64,000 nucleotides of DNA from Symbiotaphrina buchneri (lineage: Eukaryota > Ascomycota > Symbiotaphrinales > Symbiotaphrinaceae): the NCBI GenBank assembly GCA_001599915.1, contig BCIG01000009.1, positions 124,001-188,000 of the forward strand, given 5' to 3'. The notes under the pieces are model-generated. The model was not told where the DNA came from, made no database searches, and saw only the letters and a program-made list of their open reading frames with translations. The position numbers and the translations under genes are program-made. This document shows, piece after piece, positions 9,043 to 53,512 of the stretch (positions are counted from its first letter, which is position 1; each line of letters starts with the position of its first letter).

Positions 9043-9217
9043 GGTCGTATAGCTCAGTCGGTAGAGCACCAGTCTAATACTGGACCGCATCACTTGCGAC
9101 ATGGTATTTGCCAGCTGGTTGTCCTGGGGTAGGTTCATCCGATCATCGAACAATAAATTTCCATCTTCAAGGTTTCTGACGGCGTTTGTGTGAATAGTTC
9201 GAGCCCCAGTATGACCA
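9043..9217 (+). tRNA. tRNA-Ile (AAT) gene with two insertions
   Basis: Acceptor arm 9043-9049 (GGTCGTA) pairs with 9210-9216 (TATGACC), with one G-T pair; A73 is 9217. The D arm is 9052-9067 (GCTC/GAGC). Anticodon stem CCAGT (9069-9073) pairs with GCTGG (9114-9118); loop C-T-A-A-T-A gives anticodon AAT. A 33-nt insertion, 9080-9112, sits after position 37, the canonical tRNA intron site. The 5' T stem CTGGG (9124-9128) and the TTCGAGC loop plus CCCAG (9198-9209) are separated by a second insertion, 9129-9197 (69 nt). Removing it exactly restores a perfect T stem and loop. That insertion begins GTAGGT and ends TAG, with CTGAC about 20 nt before its end, as in a spliceosomal intron. T runs follow at 9222-9226 and 9229-9235. 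The gene may be functional or a disrupted copy. Confidence 0.72.
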
Positions 9218-41324: not shown

Positions 41325-44300
41325 ATGCTAGCACTGCACTCCAAGGGGGGCTCGGCGGCCCAGGTTAATGATGGGCGATTCTTACTGAGAGAAGTTTATT
41401 CGCATCCGGATCCTCTTGTCGAGTAAGTCCTGCTTCGGTCAGCCAGTCAAGGGACTTTACTGATGTTGCAGTGTTGTATTCGTTCATGGCCTCAACGGTC
41501 ACCCACTCGATACGTGGACCTCGCACGAAAAGGGGGCCGAGCCTGTGTTTTGGCCAAAGGACCTACTTCCGGAGAATACAAGGAATGAGAGGCTCAGGAT
41601 CTTGACGCATGGATATGATGCCGACGTGGCTTCTTTCATGGGCGGGGCGTCTAGGGACAAGATACATAACCATGCGGAGAATCTGGTCGCCAGGCTGTAT
41701 GCCAACCGTTCTGTGAGTCATACCATATGATTTGTTTTACGCTGTCATCAACTGATGTAGACCCTAGCTCAAAGATGCCACAAGAAGGCCAATCATCTTC
41801 GTATGTCATTCACTGGGCGGTTTGGTGGTGAAAAGGGTATGCACTACTGCGTACAGTCAGTGAGCTCAGAGCTAACAGAGACTTCGCAGGCTCTCATCTA
41901 CTCCCAAAGTCTGATGAACCCAAAAGTGAACCATCTGAGGTCCATTTTCCTGTCCACCTATGGTGTTCTGTTCCTCGGCACACCCCACAATGGTTCAGAT
42001 GTTGCAAAATGGGGCTCCCTGCTACAATCAATATGCGCAGCGACACTTCCTAAGAAATTCTTTGACACATCCCCTCACCTGATCGAAGCTCTCAAGACTC
42101 AAAGCGAGACTTTGCAGAATATTAATAGACTCTTTGCCGACACGGTAGTGTCGCAGCTCCGGATATACTTTTTCCATGAGAGCAAACCCACAGATCTGAA
42201 GGGCACCAGAGAGTTTGTAAGGGTTACAACCTGCAGCACCTGTGACTCTGCTGACCGCTCTTTAGATCGTAGATGAGGACTCAGCAGCTCCTACAATGGA
42301 GGGTGTCGAACGCATGGGTATTGAAGCAGATCACAGTCATAGTACGTTCTGCCACCGCTTTATGTAAAGCACAGAATACTGACCAGTATAGTGTGCAAAT
42401 TCTCCAGCGAAGACTCTCCAGGTTACATGGAAGTTGCTGAAGGCATCAAGAGATATGCAAGAGACGCCCCACGCGCTATTTCTCATCGATGGACAAAGGA
42501 TGAAAAACAGAAGGCGTTATTGCGACGGGAAGATGCTGAGGAGATCCTCGGAGGTGAGTATTCGCACATGGTCAATGAATACAGCTAATGTGTCTAGGTA
42601 GTTTCCCCACTGGGCTAGGGGCCGAGCGGATGTACGACACTGCTGCAACGACTTCATTTGATAACTCACCAAGTAGGTCACAGCAAGCGCTGCCAAATGC
42701 TCCCAGTCAGCCTGTCTTTGATTTTAAATTTGAAGGGGTAGAAGAAGCGGAGAAAGATATGGCAAGCTACAAGTGACTGTGGTCATTCCGAGAAGGCGGT
42801 TCAAATGGAGTTGCTTCGGCGTTTGTGCGAGTTCAAGCTTGAAATCAAATCATCGTATTGAAGCTGATTTACTTTGTTCTTCGTAGATCCATCACATACC
42901 TCTCTGCCGCAGCTGAGTCGTTCCGAAATCATTTCTAGACCGATGACTGTTGCTTCCTTCGAGCCAGAGCCAGAGAGCGAACATCAAACCTTCTTTGTTG
43001 TGCCTTCCGGCTTTCGTCAGAATGCACTCTTTGTAGGGATGAAAAGAGAAATGGAGCAGCTGAAGAAAAAGCTTTTTGACAAGAAGAAAAGGGCACTTGG
43101 AACCAGTTGCATTCTTTTACATGGTATAGCCGGGTCAGGTAAGACCCATCTAGCAAGGCAATACATATACACCCAAAGAGACAAGTTTCCAGGAGGTGTT
43201 TTCTGGGTCCGCGCAAAGTCCAAAGAGGACATCTGGCGGGACCTGTGGGTCATTGCACAAAAGGCGGCCTTGCAAGATGATGACAAACCAGAAGCATGGA
43301 GACGGCATTTCGAAGAGGATAACACATCTTTTGTGGAGAAGGTTCGCCAATGGTTCGAAGAACGCGAGGAATGGCTTCTGGTTTTCGACGGGGTTACGAT
43401 CGAGAGTGAGGCGGACTCTGTTCGATTTCAGGACATCCTGCCAGATAGCAAGAACAGCAGCCTGATATTGATATCACGAGGGGCAAATCTGATCGGGAGA
43501 GCGAGGCTGCTGAATCCCTACGGCGTCAAGGTCCACTCTTTGGCCGAAAATGAAGCCGTGCACCTACTCATGAAGGAGTGTGATAGAGAAGAGTTGAGTG
43601 CAGCAGAGATGAGCCACGCCGTGAAGCTAGTCAGGCAGGTGGACTGCCTACCGTTGGCTATACACGCAATGGGTCGCCGACTTATGGCTAGCCACGTGCC
43701 ATTGCTCAAGTACCATCCGAAGTCTTATTCTTCCGACATACTTTCCGTCAGGATCAGCAATTGTTATCGAGAGATCATGGGTGATCTCGAACGTCTAAAG
43801 AAGGTCGAGGCACGCAATTTGATTTGTGTTCTCGCATTCTTTGGTCAGCATATTCCTGTGGAGATGATCCAACTTGGATTATCAGCCATGAAGCCGTTTC
43901 ATGTCAATTTCAAAAGCCACATTGGTGGCAGAGCCGATATCAACCACACATTTACGACGCTAATGAATTATGCTTTGGTTGAACGCAACGATCCAGATGA
44001 TAAGCTTGAGGGAAGTCACGACAGCATTGTGGATACGATTGATATGTTACGGGTGCATAGCGTGGTTCAGGCGTCACTTTGTGAATATCTACGGTCACGC
44101 GGCGAATTATCTAAGTGGCTTTCGCTGGCTGTGAAATTGTTTTGTGCATCTTTCCAAAATGCGGATCGGCGTATCAAAGAAAAGGAAGGTACGGGGAAAG
44201 GATCCGACTACAGGGAATATGAAGTGCATGGAGAGAGATTACTACAACATATCAGAACCAATGAAAGGAAGAGCCCCGGCCTTGAAGAAGCAAGATTTGA

Positions 44301-46134
44301 ATTAGAGAAGACGCTAGAGCTTATCAAAGTCGAGAGCGACAGGAGGAGCCCCAGCCATTCCCAACAGGACCTCGTATCCATTTTTGATCGCACAAGCAGC
44401 AACTCGAGCACGACCGGGACAGGGCCTGAGGAACTTCAACACCGCCATTCGGAATCGAGCGTCTCAATATATGGTATAGAGAATGATAGACCGCAGTCAG
44501 AATCTCCAACTGCCATGCACGCTTCAAGGACAAGCGTCGACAGTAGTGCCCGACTGCTCTTCCCGCCGTATCAAGAAGAAGACAATGGATACCTGTCGGA
44601 AGACGACATTCACTCAACTCCTATGGAACAGACACTCTCCGCGCAGACAGTCCGCCCTGTAACGGCAAGACCAGCCACTGCAGGAGCTGAGAATGGGTCG
44701 AATGGACCTCGGCCGTGGGAGGAAGTCACTTACAAGAGGAAAGCCCCAAAGACCGAGAGCGATCTGAAACCACATAGGGCTCTCTCTTCTTTGAAAGAGC
44801 GCGGTCGAAGAGACTTTCGATCTTCCTTCCGTGCTCAGCCACTTGCAGCAACAGTTGACCCCAGGGTTGCACTCGGCGATATTACCAGAGCCGGACGCTC
44901 TCATGGAACCATTTCCAGTTCATCCGATGCAGCCTCTTACTTGACGTCCGTGACTACAAGAAGCCCTCCTCCTCCAAGAGGGGGTGGTAGGATCCCTCCT
45001 AAGATGCCTCATACTCAGGTGGCACAGTCGCAGGCTTCAGTCACTCCACCTTCTTACGCAGACGTCGTTATTGGCGGTCTGAACGGTCCCGCAGAGTCAA
45101 GAGGTCGTTCATCGTCAGCTGCTCGTCTCGGGGCGCCGCCGGGTACTACTTTCAGGATATCTCCAAGCCGAGGACGTGGAAGAAGTCAATCCAGGCCGTC
45201 ACCTCTGTCATCAGGGTTTGTGGTCCCAGAGAGACCTTTCAACTCGGCCCCAATGAGTTCGGTAGCTGTCTTCCCTCCGCCGGCTCATCCTTATAGTGTC
45301 ATCCGCCCAATCGGCCGGAATCCTGCACCGCTACCCATTGAAGAAGATGTCACCATCTCGTCTCCAACTCCAGTCGTAGCCAGTCTCCGCTACGACCATC
45401 AAACCAACTCTTCGACACAAGTGGCCTTAGCGAACTACCCCTTCGAACCTCGACCGCGAGATTCCCTGCCCTTCCTCACGGGCTATACCTCTCAGCCCAT
45501 GTCCCGCGACCCGTCGGGCCAATCGCAATACTCCATCGCCGACACCGCTCCCGCAGCCTTCTCGCCTCGCCTCACCGCCGCTGTGGGCTTCGGCAGTTTC
45601 CATGATAGTTTCGTTCAGAAAGCCAATCCCGCGGCCACGCTTCCATACGATAACGAAGGCATACCCATGCCCTCCACGCCCCCTAATCAAAACATCGTCT
45701 TTGGCGCGGGTGCCTGGACGTCTCCCATGTCAGTCGACCCAGTCACTCACGAGACAGGGGGGCTAGCGATCCAATTCGGACAACACTCTCCGCTTGACGT
45801 TGAGGCTGCTCGCACGCGGGTACAGGCACAGAGGGAGCTACTGCAGCGGCAGTTCGACATGGGCGTTTACCGCCAGCGTGGACGGCGAGAGCAGCAGCAG
45901 CAGCGGGTGAGGGAATGGCAGGATGTGAGGCTGGTAGACTATTACGGCAATGGATATGCGCTTGGTGGAAATGTGAACGCCGGAGGACTCAATGGCGGGG
46001 AAGATGGCGAGCTTGGCGGGAGCGAGATGCTGCCTCCTCAGGGGCTTGACTATGGCATGGGAAGGAGGGGGCAGATGTATGAGGGTGCTGGAGCTGTTAG
46101 CCAGAGAAGATTGTCGAGTCCCGTGGGCAGGTGA
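41325..46134 (+). CDS. Lipase-like alpha/beta hydrolase fused to NB-ARC (STAND/NLR-like protein)
   Basis: Exons I can support: 41325-41422, 41472-41712, 41768-41836, 41890-42216, 42266-42341, 42392-42553, 42598-about 42774, and a long last exon to 46134. Domain 1 is a SERAC1/SesB-like hydrolase: VVFVHGLNGHPLDTW and IIFVCHSLGGLVVKRAL with the nucleophile Ser. Domain 2 is NB-ARC: P-loop LLHGIAGSGKTHLARQY, Walker B EWLLVFDGV, GLPL-like DCLPLAIHAMG and MHD-like LRVHSVVQ. The last 550 residues are disordered, Ser/Pro-rich, with no TPR, WD or ankyrin repeats. The frame slips by one base near 42774: MASYK ends at TGA, while coding-like DCGHSEKAVQMELLRRLCEF continues in the next frame; no intron I can find repairs this. 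The exact final acceptor (42886 or 42938) is unsure. Fungal relatives act in self/non-self recognition; that role is inference. Confidence 0.78.
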
Positions 46135-46599
46135 TGACTAGCATTTATGTAGCTGGGAACAGAATGTGCGATACTATCTTCCATGAGCATATGCGCTTCA
46201 TCTTGCTGGATATGGCCAAGATTTTGCCAGGATGCCTGCGCAGTAACCAGGTGCTTCTTCAGCAGAGACTTCGGCCGCAATGACGGAAACTTGTTGCAGC
46301 TTTTAAACCAATGCCTTCGGGGATCAGACATCGCTCCTAAAGGTGCATGTGTGCATATCCCTCAGGTGAGAGCACGATCTGCCCCGCCATTTGGACCAGC
46401 AGAATGGATGCGCGATCTGCCAAAGTTGAGCCCTGATCTCCACGACAGCCACGCTTTCTCCAGAGGCCATGTGAGTATTAACTGGGCCCTTCTTTGATCT
46501 TGGAGAAGAGATCCTCCAATGGACAGAAAGCGCTCCAAAGCAATGATTCATACAGCCTGGAAATTCCTGTAGAGCGCCCCTATTTCTGGCGCACTATCC
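46135..46599. other. Spacer between the NB-ARC gene and the repeat region
   Basis: An open frame of about 100 codons (46183-46497, plus) contains PPFGPAEWMRDLPKLSPDLH and an intron-like GTGAGT, but I recognise no family. It could be another gene shred, or chance. Confidence 0.35.
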
Positions 46600-47010
46600 T
46601 TAAACCGCGACGATATTTTTTTGTATGCGATAATACCCCTAAAACGCGACGTTTATTTCTTAAAAAGCGACGACAATACACTATAAAGCGACTACATTTT
46701 TGGCGGCCCATATATTCTTAAAAAGCGACGACATTTTTTAGTGTGCAACAATTCCTTATAAAGCGACGCCTGTTTCTTAAACAGCGTCGACAATACACTA
46801 TAAAGCGACGATATTTTTAGCGGCCCATATATTCCTAAAAAGGGACGGCGATTTTTTGTATGCAATAATATCCTTAAAAAGCGACGCTTATTTCTCAAAC
46901 AGCGATGACAATACACTATAAAGCGACGCTTATTCTAGTAACGCCTATATTTTGTTATAGCGACGACAATACACTATAGAGCGACGACATTCTTATACGG
47001 CGACGATATT
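46600..47010 (+). repeat. AGCGACG array P1, higher-order period about 117 nt
   Basis: About 15 units, each opening with AGCGACG or a near variant. Four unit types recur in order: about 37 nt (containing GGCGGCCCATATATTC), 38 nt (ATTTTTTGTATGCAATAAT), 21 nt (CTTATTTCTTAAAC) and 21 nt (ACAATACACTATAA). Together they make a higher-order unit of about 117 nt, repeated about three times with scattered substitutions. No coding potential. The C at the fourth position and the CGACG core are best conserved. Confidence 0.9.
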
Positions 47011-47029
47011 TGCTCGCACTGCCAATTCT

Positions 47030-47450
47030 TCATGCTTTGGAGGTCTTAAGCCTCGATGGATAGGAATATCAATGAAATACACTGCTACGGTCATTTTCCA
47101 TGGGCGTTAGAGCTTTGCAAGGAAGCTGTGGTGCAGGTGGTAGACAAACCCTAGTCATGCTCCGCAATTGTCGTAAGTGGTGTCATAGAATGATAAGCTA
47201 CGCAAAGACCCTGGAGAATGGTAAATCAACAGGCGTGGCGCAGATGTCTAGTGCTATGGTGCCACAGATTTATCTGGCCGTGGATTGACTCATTTTGCAA
47301 ACTGGTTTGGCACTGCATGGCAGTATGGCTGCTTGCTAAGACCGGCTTCAACCTTGGTTTCCAACCCGTGAACCGGAACAAGACATCACGAGGCTAAAAA
47401 GCCTGAAAAGAGTTCCGTAGAGCATGTAAAAGGCTATGATCGGGACCTTC
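47030..47450. repeat. Duplicated block R (first copy)
   Basis: Non-coding block following array P1. The part 47212-47400 is a diverged direct copy of 48650-48830: both share GTAAA(T/C)CAACA, GGCGCAGA..TCTA..GTGCT, ATGGCTGCT and GGCTTCA.(C/G)(C/T)TTGGTT in the same order with small gaps. This suggests old tandem duplication of array plus block. Confidence 0.65.
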
Positions 47451-47701
47451 TTTCATGTACTCCGTATCGCTCCTACGATATGACTTAAATAACGCCCCTG
47501 TTTGGAAAAGGCTCCGTCAGGGGGTGGGACCCTCGAGCCTTGTCGACAGCCCTAGGAATCTGCAAGACTAGGACTGTCAACCGGAAACGCAAATGGGAGC
47601 CTAGCCATTGCAGGTATATCTGCTCCAACCGACGCAGCGCTCCCTAAATAATCATGGAGGACCTTGCTACCGCTGGCAATGAGATAACTACGCTACAGCA
47701 A

Positions 47702-47762
47702 GTTGCCTAGAAGGCAAGCAAAGGCGGGTCCCTCAACACCTGCTCACCAACCAGCAATGTAC
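47702..47762 (+). pseudogene. Short shred similar to the Mtf1-like gene
   Basis: About 60 bp closely match exon 2 of the Mtf1-like gene at 33078-33140 in the same window: TAGAAGGCAAGCAAAGGCGG and AACACCTGCTCACC are shared, with a few substitutions and small indels. The encoded segment RRQAKAG..TPAH is preserved. Too short and isolated to be a gene; it abuts a LEU1-like shred on the other strand. Confidence 0.75.
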
Positions 47763-47849
47763 AAGGTGGTTTCCTTCCTGCGGAGAAGGCGTCAGAGAAT
47801 GTTGCTCTCAAGGAAGACAGGAGCTGGACTCCTGTCCCAGGGAATATTC

Positions 47850-47976
47850 TGGCGGCAGGGAAGACCATGGCGGGGTTGACATCAGGAGCGACCTTTTTGC
47901 CTTTCACGACCTTCGCGGCAGCGCGGAGGCCTTCGATGCGCGAGTTTGTGCAGGATTTAATACCGTCGCCAATCAT
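47850..47976 (-). pseudogene. Shred of an isopropylmalate isomerase (LEU1)-like gene
   Basis: On the minus strand this reads MIGDGIK, then SCTNSRIEGLRAAAKVVKG followed by KKVAPDVNPAM. This is the iron-sulfur Cys-containing SCTNSRIEDLRAAA region of 3-isopropylmalate dehydratase, of which the usual neighbouring residues are missing between GDGIK and SCTNS. Only about 40 codons are recognisable, inside a 127-codon open frame whose rest is unrelated. No full LEU1 gene is in the window. Confidence 0.7.
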
Positions 47977-48078
47977 TCTAAAGCTCCCTGTCGACCTTTT
48001 ATGTAAATTGTTGATATTCTGAATCAGAACCGCGATGCGAAAGGCACCGCTATTTCCTCGCACCCGTTTATTCCTAAA

Positions 48079-48320
48079 AGGCGATGACAAGTTTTGTATG
48101 CGACAATATCCTCTTAAAGCGACGACTATTCCTTAAGCGGCGACGACAATTGCTTGTAGAGCGACGCTCACCATATATTCTTGAAAAGCGACAACATTCT
48201 TATGTAGCGACGATTATTCCTTAAGTAGCGACGATAATTGCTTGTAGGGTGACTCTAACCATATATTCTTGAAAAGCGACGACACTCTTATGTAGCGACG
48301 AGAATTTCTTTTAAGGCGTT
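48079..48320 (+). repeat. AGCGACG array P2, higher-order period 88 nt
   Basis: Ten units in plus orientation. After a 39-nt unit with TTTTGTATGCGACAATAT, units of 21, 21, 27 and 19 nt (ending CCTTAAG, TTGCTTGTAG, CCATATATTCTTGAAA and ATTCTTATGT) repeat twice as an 88-nt higher-order unit. Shares the AGCGACG core and the CATATATTCTT and GTATGCGA words with array P1. Confidence 0.9.
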
Positions 48321-48328
48321 GATAACAC

Positions 48329-48525
48329 TGCCATGGCCTTCCTGCTGCTATGCTCCGTCGAGGCCATCAATGGTGAAGTGCGCCGCTGGGCTATGCACTT
48401 CATCATCGTGCAGGTATCATCGAGTCTCTCCGTGGCCGGGCGTGCTCCGGCGCAACCCCGACGGCCTGTTCCTGTTGAGAGCCTTCGTGTATCACGACAT
48501 CCTCAGGGCCGTGGTACCATGAACT
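48329..48525 (+). pseudogene. Shred resembling a fungal Zn2Cys6 transcription factor middle domain
   Basis: Two adjoining frames read LLLCSVEAINGEVRRWAMHF and, after about 30 nt, NPDGLFLLRAFVYHDILRAV. Both resemble the fungal-specific transcription factor region of Zn2Cys6 regulators (LLL..VE..NG..R.W..H and L...F.YHD.L...). No DNA-binding domain or rest of a gene is nearby. The assignment is from memory of the family pattern and moderate. Confidence 0.5.
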
Positions 48526-48589
48526 CTTACAGCATCCATGACATTTTGCTCAAATGATAATAATGCAATAAGCAATGATCATCCTTGGG

Positions 48590-48880
48590 CCAATACGGCG
48601 GGCTGGCTTTAAGAATACTTGCTTGCTTGCGGGATACTTGAAGCAGATACCCTCCCGATAGTAAACCAACAAGTTGGCGCAGACATCTACAGTGCTCTAG
48701 ATTTTCCCCCGTAGATTGGAACAAATATGACAGGCATGGCATCTCCATGGCTGCTAGTGGAGAGTGGCTTCAGTCTTGGTTCTTAACTTCTCCCGCCTGG
48801 CTTGCGTCCTTGCACCTTGATGAGACATCCTGATTCTGGGAGCTCAAACACTGGCCGTTAAAGTACGGCACAATTAGGAT
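48590..48880. repeat. Duplicated block R (second copy)
   Basis: Diverged direct copy of the block at 47030-47450, again placed downstream of a plus-strand AGCGACG array. Similarity is patchy over about 180 bp. No coding content recognised. Confidence 0.6.
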
Positions 48881-48940
48881 TCACTGTAAACTCCATGATA
48901 CTGTCGCCGTTCGGTTTTAAGCTCCCAATGATTCTCTCTG

Positions 48941-49116
48941 TAAAGCGTTGTATTTTTCATATAGCCATGAAATCCCTGAGAGAGCGCTGCTGTTTTCCAG
49001 TACTCGATATTCTTACAAGGCGACGAGATCTTTTTGTATGCGATAATACCCTTAAAAGGCGACGCCTATTTCTTATGTAGCGTCGACAATACACTATAAA
49101 GCGACAAGACTTCTTG
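48941..49116 (+). repeat. AGCGACG array P3
   Basis: Degenerate plus-strand array. Its last part, 49014-49116, has the P1 unit order: GGCGACGA with TTTTTGTATGCGATAATACC, then GGCGACGCCTATTTCTTATG, then the ACAATACACTATAA unit. It ends about 30 nt before the palindrome at 49147. Confidence 0.8.
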
Positions 49117-49146
49117 GCGCCGCCTACACAGACACAGCAATGATAG

Positions 49147-49161
49147 ACTACGTCACGTAGT
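49147..49161. repeat. Perfect 15-nt palindrome at the array orientation switch
   Basis: ACTACGT-C-ACGTAGT is a perfect inverted repeat around a central C. It lies in the only gap where the arrays change from plus to minus orientation (49117-49300). Copies of TTGGCGCCG also occur near both sides of this gap. Confidence 0.75.
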
Positions 49162-49300
49162 GATAATGCCACAAACAACGATGACACTTATAAGGAAATG
49201 GCAATAGGAAGATAGGGGATGTCAAAATTGTTTGTTGACTTGCAAGCAATAACGTTGCGCTTTATCTACGCTGTATCTTTGGCGCCGATGACAGGCATCG

Positions 49301-49494
49301 CGTTACAAGTAATATCGTCTCCTTTTAAGTAATATCGTCGCTCTAAAGGTTATTATCGTCGCTTCTTAAGAATATATGGGCTGCCAAGAATTTTAGTCGC
49401 TTTATAGTGTATTATCGTCGCCATATAACTAATTGTCGACGCTTGATAAGAATATCGTCACCTTACAAGAATACGTGCCCCTGAAGAATTGTCG
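49301..49494 (-). repeat. AGCGACG array M1, minus orientation
   Basis: Same family read on the minus strand: TCGTCGCT recurs every 20-40 nt, with the complements of the P1 words (TTATAGTGTATT, GAATATATGGGCTGCC). About eight units, interrupted at the right end. Confidence 0.85.
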
Positions 49495-49980
49495 TAAACA
49501 CGAACTCCCAGACCCATGAGATGTTGCAAATAAAATCTTAAAAGGAGCAACGATCATATGAAAACACCAATCATTGAAAACTTCAGAGCAGAATTTATCG
49601 GCATAGCTTCCCTCACGCAGGGGCCCAGACCTGGTCGCGGGGCGCCGGGCGTGCAGAGCTTCCCCTGGCGAACCGTCAAGTCCTAGCAACGAGAAGAGGA
49701 GAAAAAGGAACAGATCCATTGAACTCGGATTCATCCACCTCCAGCACTTCTGAGGCTAGGATATCTTAAGCCCTTGTTCACCATGTCCAGGGCTCAAGGA
49801 ACGGTGCAATCAATAAACTCGGTAGAGGCGACCAGCCGAACAGGGGCTACTAAGTGATCATGACCTCGTCTTACCTCGAAACAATGTAACAGATTATCAG
49901 ACTCTAACATGACGGTAAGTGCTGGAGCAGAGCAAGAAGTATGCAGTCAAAATCTCCAGAACCAAGCTCTAGGAATGTAT
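49495..49980. other. Spacer between arrays M1 and M2
   Basis: Contains a GC-rich patch (about 49615-49690) unlike its AT-rich surroundings, with plus-strand codons reading SNEKRRKRNRSIELGFIHLQ. I recognise no family; by analogy with the neighbours it may be another host-gene shred. Confidence 0.3.
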
Positions 49981-50190
49981 GGTGCCAGGAATTATCGTCG
50001 CCGTATAGTGTATTATCGACGCTTTTTAAGGAATTATCGTCGCTTGATAAGAATATTATCGCATACAAAAAAAAGGTCGTCCCCATGTAAGAATATCGTC
50101 GCTCTATAGTGTATTGTCGACGCTCTTTAAGAAATTGTCGTCGCTATATTAAAATATCGTCGCCTTGCAAGAATAAATGGTGCCGGGAAA
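49981..50190 (-). repeat. AGCGACG array M2, minus orientation
   Basis: About eight minus-strand units. It contains the full complement of the P1 order, including TATAGTGTATT(A/G)TCGACGCT twice and ATTATCGCATACAAAAAAAA. It begins and ends with ATGGTGCC(A/G)GGAA, as if bounded by short direct repeats. Confidence 0.85.
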
Positions 50191-50269
50191 TAATGCCCCC
50201 TCCTAGAGTATTATGGCCTTGGAAAATCTGAACACCGGACCAGACACCTGAATAATGGGTTTCAACGGC

Positions 50270-50556
50270 CACAGAGATATTTTCTTCAGATGATGACGCC
50301 GTAATTTCCATGCCATTTCTGTTCCCAATCCTCATGCTTGTGGTTGTAGGGCGCAAAATCTCAAGAGCCAAGGTTATCGCGGCCAAGATCTCAAGAACCA
50401 AGAGCTGTCGCAACAAATTCCAAGCATCAAAGGCTTTCGCAAGCAAATCTCCAGGAATCTGAAAATTACCGTGAGACCAAACGGAATTACGGTAACAACA
50501 TCTCAAAGACCAAATATTGTCGCGGGCAAGCTCTCAGGAACCAAGATGTAAGAATG
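50270..50556. repeat. Block S with an internal 30-nt tandem repeat
   Basis: From about 50355 to 50550 a motif of the form CTCAAGAACCAAGA plus TGTCGC and CAAG recurs about every 30 nt, five to six diverged copies. The part 50290-50385 resembles 50870-50970 (shared TTGCCAT/TTCCAT, ATCCT.ATGCTTGT/ATCCTTGTACTTGT, CTCAAGAGCC/TTCAAGGAGCC), a second duplicated block paired with minus-strand arrays. Confidence 0.65.
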
Positions 50557-50785
50557 TATGGGACCGACATATCATCGCTATACAAGGCATTGTCGACGCT
50601 ATACAAGTAACATCGTCGCTTTGTAGGGATATTGTCGAAACAAAAAAAATTGTCGTCCCTTTCTAGGAATATATGGTCGCCAAGAATTCTTGTCGCCGTA
50701 TAAGGCATTGTCGACGCTGTAGAAGTAATATCGTCGCTACATAAGAATATTATCGCATACAAAAAAAGTCATCGCTTTACAAGAA
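50557..50785 (-). repeat. AGCGACG array M3, minus orientation
   Basis: About ten minus-strand units. Paired words GGCATTGTCGACGCT and AGTAA(C/T)ATCGTCGCT occur twice, about 120 nt apart, so the higher-order period resembles that of P1. Ends in a TATTATCGCATACAAAAAAAG unit. Confidence 0.87.
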
Positions 50786-52771
50786 TATATCCTTCCAGTA
50801 AATAAACTTGCAGAAATCCAGACTTTCGACTGGGCACCTCGAGGCTGTATCAATGATGAGTCCCGCTGGTCACAACCAGTCATGATGTCGCAACATCTTG
50901 CCATCTCTGTCCTGATCCTTGTACTTGTAACTGGAAGGCAGGAAACTTCAAGGAGCCAAGAATTGTCGTGCACCAAGTTGCACTGAAAAGTGGAGATATA
51001 TCGCAGCCAAATTTGAGGAGCCATAATCTACTGCAGATATTTTCAAGAGGTCGAGGTGCGCTCTAAGAATGTTGCCGACTTGCAAAGAATAAGAAATCAG
51101 GGTCAGGAATAATCGGCCCCAATGATAACAGGCGTAATGTAGAGAGCAAGTTCAGATAAATCAACGTAGAAGCAGCCTAGCACAATTGCACACACGGGGC
51201 CACAGATCCTGAAGCCTTATGACAGTCTGTTGGACCTTTGATTCTTCAAAAACCTTCCATCCTCGTAGGAACTCTAGGCTTGGGAGCTTTTGCTTTGGAA
51301 AGATATCGAGGATTTCAAGATGACGTTCTGGCAGGCATAACACATGAGTTAAGGAAGAAAATATCACGAATCGCTGCCTTGTTTCATAAGACAGACTCAT
51401 TCGAGACCACTTGCCCTTGCTTCGGATGTCAAATCAAAAAGGAAAGCACACATAGATCACCAAAACAAAAAGTTCGGGGCCGTGACTGCAGAGCAGCCAG
51501 GGCACCCTATGAAAACCCCCATTCCGAAGAAAGGTGATTTTACCAGGACTCGAACACAGGTGTGTTGACCAGGTGAATGGTGTACGCACGACAAGCTAAG
51601 CCTCCCTTTCCCAAATTCCCAATCGGGTAATTTGGCATCATGGGGAGAACCGTGTTACTCGCTTCGACCATCCATCCGTTTTCCGTTGAAAAGGGGAGCC
51701 TTATAACAATATATAAATAAGTCTCAAGCAGTTGTGGGAGACCCATAAGCTCATTGTTCTGCTCGGAGCTTCATTGTGCGAGACATTAGACATCGGCTTC
51801 CTGTCCAACAGCTCACCCTCCTTTGAAAAGGTAGAGACTTGTCTGGGCGACATCCTAAGGCTCAACAATGTTAGGATTCCGGGCCCATATAAACCATCTA
51901 TATGGCTGGCAGAGTTGTCAGCTACCGCCCACGAAAAATGGTACGAGCGGCATGAGTTCCCATGGCCGGCGAGCGGCAGATGGCTACCAACCTTTTCCAT
52001 CTATACCAAGCATTCACACCACTAGATAATGTGCACAGTCACCAGGGCGAATGGAACAAAAGGGACTTCAATAGCCTTATCATTGAGCACTTTCATTCAT
52101 TCTGACATTGTCGGCGGTGAAGGTTCAATTAAACATTCTGGCACATGCCGGCCGACAATTAAAGGGGCTAACGGGCGGGATTGACAACGTGGCCCGCCCG
52201 GCGGGCGCTAAAAACTTGGCTCCCGACCCGAGATCCCGCCATCCCCCTGTCCGTGCGACGGTGCATCACGACATGGGTCCGGAGTCAGGGTTCAACACCA
52301 AGCGGAAATATATCTGATGTCTCAGCATGTTCGGATTCGAGAATCATTGCACCAGTAAGTGAAGAGCGGCACGGCGGGGCTTCTGGGGTGCTCCCTCAAT
52401 GGCTCTTGAAGCGCATGTAGAAGTGTATTGTAGGATTCTATGGCAGCTCATGGAAACAGGTCAGCCTCGAAGTGGTGGAAGGTATAATAGCTGGCGAGTG
52501 AATATGACCTACTTAGTGCTCGTTATTCGATATCAATTGAACCCAGCCGTACACTTCCGCTCCTCTCCTCCCCGTCCACGCTCACATTTCCGCTCTGGCC
52601 AGCTCTCATATCCAGCAGCCGAATCTTCCTCTATCCAGACCGGAATTGTGATCACCTCTATCAGCACGGAACTGTGCTTCGCCCTTTTCTATTCCCCAAC
52701 GCAAATCGGCCTCTTTCTCGGCCTTAGAACTTTCCCCCCATATCCTCGACAGCAAGATCCCGACTCTCAGA
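50786..52771. other. Right flank of the repeat region
   Basis: The first 250 bp contain the diverged second copy of block S (with GGAGCC motifs near 50950 and 51020). From 51050 on I see no array units. Open frames of about 100 codons at 51238-51537 and 51732-52025 have no recognisable domain. A GC-rich patch lies near 52185-52210. The last 200 bp are CT-rich and look like the leader of the DUF3716 gene. Confidence 0.45.
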
Positions 52772-53416
52772 ATGCCCCGCAAGTCATCGAAGACGAAGCG
52801 AACCGTCTCCCCGATCCACGGTGAAATTATTGGCCGCTTGAAGCAGCTCAAATGGCCTCTCTATAAAGAACTACGGAAGGATAAGCAGCGAAACCGAGAC
52901 ATTGTGTTCCGGTCGGGCGCGGGGCTCAACTTTCCGCTGGGTATGTGCCCAGATACCCTTTCCCAGCAACTTCTAACAGCCAAGATAGACACCCCCAAGG
53001 ATGCCAGAGCCCTCACTAGGAACCACGGCTATCAGCTGAATGCCGTGGTGGTGCAAGGGTGGGGGGTTGATAACCAGGAAGCGTGTACGCACTGCCTGGC
53101 GGGCAAGGGGCCGTTCAGGCAGTGTATCCGGCTGCCCCGAAGCCGCGGCGTGGGTGCCCCGGGGTCACACCCTTGGGCTTGCTCGAACTGCGTATGGCGC
53201 AACGCAACTGTGCTGTGCATGAGTAAGTCATCTTCCAATGACTCTGAATCCCTGGTTGACAGACACATAGCAGCACAGGAGGAAGAAGCCGAAAAGCGGC
53301 AGAAGCAGCAGCAGCAGGAGCAGCAACAAACAGAAGAGCAGGAGGATGAAGAGATGGAGGAAGGCGAGGACGAAGATGACGGAGAAGCCGACGAAGATGA
53401 TGGAGAAGCCGAGTAG
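52772..53416 (+). CDS. DUF3716-type cysteine-rich fungal protein
   Basis: 214 residues if unspliced. The N terminus is basic (MPRKSSKTKRTVSP). The Cys module is CTHCLAGKGPFRQCIRLP followed by CSNCVWRNATVLC, the CxxC...C...CxxC...C pattern of DUF3716, a domain of unknown function expanded in some filamentous fungi. The tail is Gln-rich then Glu/Asp-rich. A stop-free 48-nt intron is possible at 53223-53270 (GTAAGT...CATAG), which would remove SKSSSNDSESLVDRHI-like sequence and leave the frame intact. A zinc-binding, nucleic-acid-related role can be guessed but not shown. It sits between the repeat region and the poly-G tract. Confidence 0.68.
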   Translation: MPRKSSKTKRTVSPIHGEIIGRLKQLKWPLYKELRKDKQRNRDIVFRSGAGLNFPLGMCPDTLSQQLLTAKIDTPKDARALTRNHGYQLNAVVVQGWGVDNQEACTHCLAGKGPFRQCIRLPRSRGVGAPGSHPWACSNCVWRNATVLCMSKSSSNDSESLVDRHIAAQEEEAEKRQKQQQQEQQQTEEQEDEEMEEGEDEDDGEADEDDGEAE

Positions 53417-53427
53417 GGGCGTCTTCT

Positions 53428-53457
53428 GGGGGGGGGGGGGGAGGGGGGGGGGGGGGG

Positions 53458-53512
<55 letters not shown>
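53428..53512 (+). repeat. 85-nt poly-G tract
   Basis: G throughout except A at 53442 and 53460; the last 52 bases are uninterrupted G. It begins 12 nt after the DUF3716 stop codon. It may be a real G-quadruplex-forming tract or an assembly artefact of dark-base calling or homopolymer collapse. Confidence 0.85.

Follow-up and report, generated by a model that had tools for sequence, protein, structure and literature searches.

Within a 64,000-nt stretch of the Symbiotaphrina buchneri genome (contig BCIG01000009.1, forward strand, positions 124,001 to 188,000; hereafter the window, numbered from its first base), we analyzed a region of short AGCGACG repeats at about 46.5-51.1 kb. Our results suggest that the interval 46548-50852 is probably a decayed, non-autonomous DNA transposon of foldback-like (Pack-type) structure, flanked by a candidate 5-bp target-site duplication, ATGAT. 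Long inverted ends built of tandem subrepeats characterize foldback elements and are present here as 51 units arranged in two blocks of arrays. Further, a host gene fragment between inverted ends, the trait of Pack-type elements, is present as a fragment of LEU1. The resemblance to foldback elements thus lies in the inverted two-block layout, the phased and conserved cores, the lack of a transposase, the gene fragment and a candidate end pair. The element is not placed in any named family, because a search for a Mutator-like duplication found none and it has no known transposase.

A 22-bp unit profile was trained on 24 exact GCGACGA sites and then iterated. The profile converged on 54 sites, 51 of which lie in 46.5-50.9 kb (consensus TCTTATAAAGCGACGACAATTC). 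All 51 units scored at least 15 bits; the best site in 20 mononucleotide shuffles of 46.0-51.2 kb, scanned on one strand, scored 14.7 bits. All of the first 28 units read on the plus strand and all of the last 23 on the minus, in agreement with the original prediction, which was made from the sequence alone and described six arrays in two opposite-facing groups. Within the window the arrays form a single locus, laid out as follows.

46598-47010, plus strand: array L1, 15 units; three ~117-bp higher-order units and a partial one
48069-48330, plus strand: array L2, 9 strong units; 88-bp higher-order period
49007-49124, plus strand: array L3, 4 strong units; one full higher-order unit
49125-49300, no strand: centre of the orientation flip, from the unit orientations
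49311-49475, minus strand: array R1, 7 units
49981-50182, minus strand: array R2, 8 units
50550-50790, minus strand: array R3, 8 units; two higher-order units

The prediction had placed the third array at 48.94-49.12 kb; it is strong from about 49.01 kb, and the unit at 48.94 kb scored 7.8 bits. Homology between L1 and L3 nevertheless starts upstream of the strong L3 units, at 48956 (46547 in L1). The predicted unit length of 19-39 nt was refined to real spacings of 19-21, 33-40 and 48 nt. Among the 46 spacings under 60 nt, counted from 52 of the 53 listed sites including a 9.8-bit site at 46574, 21 occurred at 21 nt, nine at 19-20 nt, 14 at 33-40 nt and two at 48 nt. By eye, the steps of 37-40 nt contain diverged units, termed Z (TGTATGCGATAAT) and E (GGCGCCCATATATTC), and the decay of units is graded toward the array edges. 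A gene encoding tandem peptides was rejected, as the frame is broken by the spacings of 19, 37-40 and 48 nt and no open reading frame (ORF) of at least 150 amino acids (aa) covers the arrays. Near the orientation flip, at 49147-49161, there is a 7-bp inverted repeat (ACTACGTCACGTAGT), perfect around a single central base, which may be due to chance.

Tandem Repeats Finder returned both of the higher-order periods that had been predicted, 117 nt at 46595-46928 (2.8 copies) and 88 nt at 48118-48301 (2.1 copies), together with 21-nt periods in R2. A higher-order unit of ~117 nt is common to the left and right groups: seven copies in which slots A-D are all present align end to end, three of them from L1, two from R3 and one each from L3 and R2. 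The slots, which were assigned and lettered by eye, follow the order A, Z, B, C, D and E; C is often GCGTCGAC, and in D the core mostly follows CACTATA. The accessory words reported for both groups were indeed found in both, TGTATGCGATAAT twice on each strand, ACAATACACTATA five times on the plus and once on the minus strand, and CATATATTC four times on the plus and twice on the minus strand. Among ten higher-order copies, full or partial, the mean identity was 75% for pairs of left copies, 71% for pairs of right copies and 69% across the two groups. These identities point to a common origin of the left and right arrays at considerable age. In a tree of the ten copies the two sides grouped loosely, with values of 0.97 for R2a with R1a and 0.57 for R3b with L copies.

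The region is therefore more ordered than a simple minisatellite, as had been proposed, and yet the head-to-tail tandem units returned by Tandem Repeats Finder are the trait of one. The main rival, and a serious one, is an old, non-mobile, complex minisatellite in a gene-poor stretch, built by slippage and unequal exchange and rearranged by one inversion, into which the LEU1 fragment would have come by break repair; we regard this origin as possible and, on balance, unlikely. It would account for the nested periods (~20 and 88/117 nt), a spacer-level duplication that passes the candidate right end, array edges that appear by eye to decay gradually, the single locus in the window and the lack of any ORF of at least 150 aa from 46134 to 52772. 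In contrast, one inversion more readily gives equal halves than the layout seen here, in which each side has three arrays and the spacers differ, and an end pair with a 5-bp duplication would be unexpected.

The divergence of the units also bears on this rival. Sites had been found by profile and seven units picked for completeness, so that mild ascertainment is possible in the following figures: in pairwise comparisons of the same slot (28 slots, seven units), the GCGACG columns had diverged by 0.107, compared with 0.330 in the other 15 columns, a contrast reached by 3 of 20,000 column permutations, and in a wider set of 36 units, which adds L2 and extra units of R1 and R2, the 7-nt core had diverged by 13.6% compared with 34.7%, with the minimum at the core offset. 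The core thus diverges three times less than its surroundings, and the units are therefore probable protein-binding sites. Past selection on a protein-bound core is the simplest reading. Plain slippage and homogenization do not predict this pattern. Had there been slippage or conversion between classes, the flanks would be blurred as well, whereas in the data they remain class-specific. The proposal of clustered protein-binding sites was accordingly strengthened by the preferential conservation of GCGACG and by 21 bp being the commonest spacing (21 of 46).

Core conservation and the 21-bp spacing would also be expected of a host chromosomal element whose GCGACGA sites are bound by protein and kept under selection for replication, segregation, a boundary or a regulatory platform. 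We consider such an element improbable, given the gene-rich surroundings, the diverged spacers and the gene fragment inside the region. Further, no host factor for the GCGACGA site was identified, and neither pattern scans of viral and prokaryotic collections nor the papers listed by a literature string search gave anything relevant. The degenerate site patterns had no match in viral or prokaryote contigs, which says little for a fungal host and for scans that require exact patterns. The earlier suggestion of replication or segregation elements gained no specific support.

We compared the spacers between the arrays in 132 comparisons, each against 30 dinucleotide shuffles. The spacers are listed below.

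47012-48063, plus strand: spacer S1, part homologous to S2
48335-48950, plus strand: spacer S2, part homologous to S1; no Aconitase match in the stretches scanned
49478-49965, minus strand: spacer T1, no same-orientation homology above noise
50185-50545, minus strand: spacer T2, homologous to T3 and with its own ~51-nt direct repeat
50795-51140, minus strand: T3, homologous to T2 and mostly outside the candidate right end

The best of the 132 comparisons showed that 47192-47359 in S1 is homologous to 48633-48781 in S2 (z 7.0), and the second best that 50287-50493 in T2 is homologous to 50877-51103 in T3 (z 6.4). The repeats thus continue to about 51.1 kb, so that the predicted extent of 46600-50785 held for the arrays, whereas the duplicated spacers pass its right limit. 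Values near 4-5 were taken as noise, since a comparison with a control segment gave 3.6; these included T1 with T2 inverted (5.3), S2 with T2 inverted (4.1) and T3 with 52.4-53.3 kb inverted (4.0). Compared with random pairs, the S1 and S2 tails ranked near the 99th percentile for homology; the upstream flanks of L1 and L3 alone ranked lower. Spacer plus array as one six-way macro-unit was rejected; the fit was good only in the arrays, S1-S2 and T2-T3, and unconvincing in T1 and the left flank. Within T1, 49601-49800 is a GC-rich island (0.57) amid AT-rich arrays and is possibly another inserted piece; three overlapping stretches scanned there gave no Pfam match.

Candidate ends were detected just outside the outermost arrays.

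46548-50852, no strand: candidate element, 4305 bp, with 14-nt inverted ends TCATACAGCCTGGA and TGATACAGCCTCGA and ATGAT outside both

The ends match at 12 of 14 positions, ATGAT lies directly outside each of them, and they are 50 and 62 nt beyond the outermost strong arrays. The L1-L3 homology detected by BLAST begins at 46547/48956, adjoining the candidate left end. A search for inverted ends of 14 nt with at most two mismatches gave eight pairs, six of them on one diagonal at 46543-46548/50852-50857; the same search gave 0-5 pairs in 12 control region pairs. With a duplication threshold of 5 that was chosen after the pair had been seen, an end pair matching at 12 of 14 positions and carrying a duplication of at least 5 bp occurred in 2 of 1500 control region pairs in the same search space, and edges of 130 x 130 nt gave a duplication of at least 5 bp in 5 of 3000 controls under any of six length and match settings. 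The pair 46548/50852 was recovered by four of these settings (10/9, 12/10, 14/12 and 20/15), not by 8/8 or 16/13. The rarity of the ATGAT duplication in controls raised the probability assigned to the transposon. Three nested insertions (L1/R3, L2/R2 and L3/R1) were also considered and rejected, as L2 or L3 against R1 or R2 gave no end pairs with duplications; the sole end match of L3 and R1, CTTACAAG, falls within the repeat units themselves.

We then analyzed coding content with a Pfam scan of 62 open stretches of at least 48 codons over 46135-52400, accepting E values up to 0.1. Eight families were listed, and the matches of interest were as follows.

47728-47964, minus strand: fragment of 3-isopropylmalate dehydratase (LEU1/LeuC-like), best profile match at 47752-47961
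48324-48413, plus strand: weak match to Fungal_trans_2, a transcription-factor domain, E 0.02, below the cut-off and lost when the stretch was shortened

The LEU1 fragment comprises about 70 codons in S1, beginning GIKSCTNSRIEGLRAAAKVVKGKKVAPDV; residues 58-127 of the open stretch match the large subunit. Among NCBIfam profiles it matched PRK12466 (E 1.1e-10) and, over residues 58-96, leuC (E 3.7e-10), with scores far under the whole-protein cut-offs, as must hold for a fragment. It also matched Pfam Aconitase (E 7e-7, 29.0 bits, cut-off 28.7) and the PDB homoaconitase 4kp2 (E 0.0054). The Aconitase match occurred in one of the 62 stretches, and S2 showed no trace of it in stretches of at least 48 codons, despite its S1-like middle part. 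The comparison suggests either insertion or capture of the fragment into S1 or its loss from S2. The other seven families had E values of 0.02 or worse. One of these was CxC1, a cluster that takes its name from an association with KDZ transposases; its E value was 0.037, and the match was treated as chance. Fungal_trans_2 as a second gene fragment was too weak at E 0.02 among 62 stretches and is not claimed. The match lies within a GC-rich stretch, 48324-48510, in and before S2, in which a second similar piece was seen by eye in another frame; the stretch is possibly a second gene fragment.

These results allow the following model of the element. Each half is an ordered set of arrays of a ~20-bp site with the core GCGACGA, most often two helical turns apart, and the two halves face in opposite directions. 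A transposase or accessory protein from an autonomous partner elsewhere in the genome may bind the sites, and the bound protein would pair both ends and move the element. Growth of the arrays would raise occupancy. As for the order of events, the LEU1 fragment may have been picked up by the element itself or by DNA repair at the inverted repeat.

The suggestion of subterminal transposase sites in the original prediction thus gained from the inverted two-block layout, the gene fragment and the candidate ends with their 5-bp duplication, and it lost from the search for a transposase, to which none of the 62 stretches had a Pfam match at E up to 0.1, and from the search for duplications of 8-11 bp at the outer ends, which gave no candidate compared with one in 7 of 15 control pairs. 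Both results weigh against a transposon, as does the choice of the duplication threshold described above. Further, the inverted match at the candidate ends is short and imperfect, and the inner arrays (L2 or L3 against R1 or R2) showed no paired ends flanked by a duplication. T3 (50877-51103), beyond the candidate right end, resembles the inner spacer T2, a likeness that would not follow from a simple insertion. It is also unusual for each side to have three arrays separated by long spacers, a single copy was seen within the window, and the LEU1 fragment could also be filler DNA at a repaired break.

We compared the putative transposon with known systems, as described in the available portions of the papers cited. 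Among the literature matches listed, mostly from non-subscription journals, no fungal element with this motif or layout was recognized by title or abstract. In Aedes, 10 of 12 Mutator-like families with long terminal inverted repeats have subterminal tandem repeats of 9-15 bp, and non-autonomous copies of Muta1 and its kin contain host gene fragments (PMC5225508). Tm1 of Meloidogyne has comparable ends (PMC3169594). The likeness lies in inverted ends made of short tandem repeats and, for Aedes, in the host gene fragments. In contrast, the reported duplications are 8-9 bp in Aedes and 9 bp in Tm1, compared with the candidate 5 bp here, and the units are 9-15 bp, compared with ~20-bp units in 117-bp order with three arrays per side. 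The fit to Mutator-like elements is thus weakened, because a 5-bp duplication does not suit them. In Drosophila, Tetris and Galileo have tandem repeats inside their inverted ends, and those of Galileo hold extra transposase sites (PMC4079207); the two differ from the present case in sequence and repeat length (~220 bp in Tetris), and several copies of them are known. An ascomycete, Pyrenophora tritici-repentis, has hAT and Tc1/mariner transposons that carry host-like genes (PMC3538342). These differ in having terminal repeats, a transposase and many copies, and the text of that report (PMC3538342) does not use the term 'tandem repeat'.

Short ends with repeated subterminal sites are also described for hAT elements. 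There are hAT families with 5-bp duplications, although the usual duplication is 8 bp (PMC12730594). Unlike these, no hAT transposase was found here. The 11-mer CGACACTCTTA at 48280 equals what we take to be the En/Spm motif, and this string was absent from the literature matches listed. In CACTA elements (En/Spm), a short motif with GC-rich and AT-rich parts is repeated near both ends and is bound by an element protein (PMC2613891), and a repeated motif of this kind occurs near both ends here. However, none of the eight end pairs (14 nt, two mismatches) begins with CACTA, as the ~13-bp CACTA terminal repeat would, the candidate ends have no 3-bp duplication, and the units of Tgmt* are described as 17 bp.

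In another explanation, the arrays of the putative transposon are not transposase sites; a sequence-specific anti-silencing protein would dock on them, by analogy with VANC of VANDAL elements. VANC motifs are described as short, protein-bound, fast-diverging tandem repeats in non-coding parts of VANDALs, which have degenerate terminal repeats (PMC5735166, PMC10398659). However, the VANC motif is YAGTATTAY, VANDALs are described from a plant, Arabidopsis, with an autonomous copy known, and the available portions do not present strict inversion of the two halves as a requirement. Further, none of the eight Pfam families listed for the interval is a VANC-type protein, although Pfam may hold no VANC model. 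We therefore consider this explanation highly improbable.

If the element is mobile, it is a fungal example of a foldback or Pack-type transposon in which ordered binding arrays are combined with gene pick-up; the motif GCGACGA at 21-bp steps, with candidate ends resembling TCATACAG...CTGTATCA, should help to find sister copies and the protein. It is doubtful, and offered as a conjecture, that such copies would form an ascomycete family with imperfect inverted ends, a 5-bp duplication, mirror-image lattices of ~20-bp sites (A-Z-B-C-D-E, GCGACGA), gene pick-up and an undescribed transposase or anti-silencing reader. If it does not move, the question raised by the conserved core is which host protein reads the sites. 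If the region is an old minisatellite, it is ordinary.

No ORF of at least 150 aa lies between 46134 and 52772 and none overlaps the arrays. On the upstream side, the arrays adjoin a gene for an NB-ARC (STAND/NLR-like) protein at 42874-46131. Elsewhere, the window encodes a large protein kinase at 54.2-59.9 kb (Bck1-like by reading), DNA polymerase epsilon (C-terminal part) at 61.0-64.0 kb and an IF-2-like protein. Together with a DUF3716 reading frame, these genes suggest a filamentous ascomycete. The ratio TpA/ApT was 0.85 in the region and 0.64 outside, and (CpA+TpG)/(ApC+GpT) was 1.20 in the region and 1.33 outside. These indices fall short of the usual cut-offs for repeat-induced point mutation, and a signature of this process in the region is not clear.

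The DUF3716 reading frame lies at 52.8-53.4 kb. Just after its acidic C-terminus, 53428-53512 is an 85-nt G tract (95% matches in Tandem Repeats Finder), possibly an assembly artefact or a G-quadruplex tract. Structured RNA in the arrays was rejected, as the sole Rfam match at gathering scores in the whole window was a tRNA elsewhere, at 9043-9217. This tRNA was missed by ARAGORN in its bacterial setting; it spans 175 nt, which implies a long intron.

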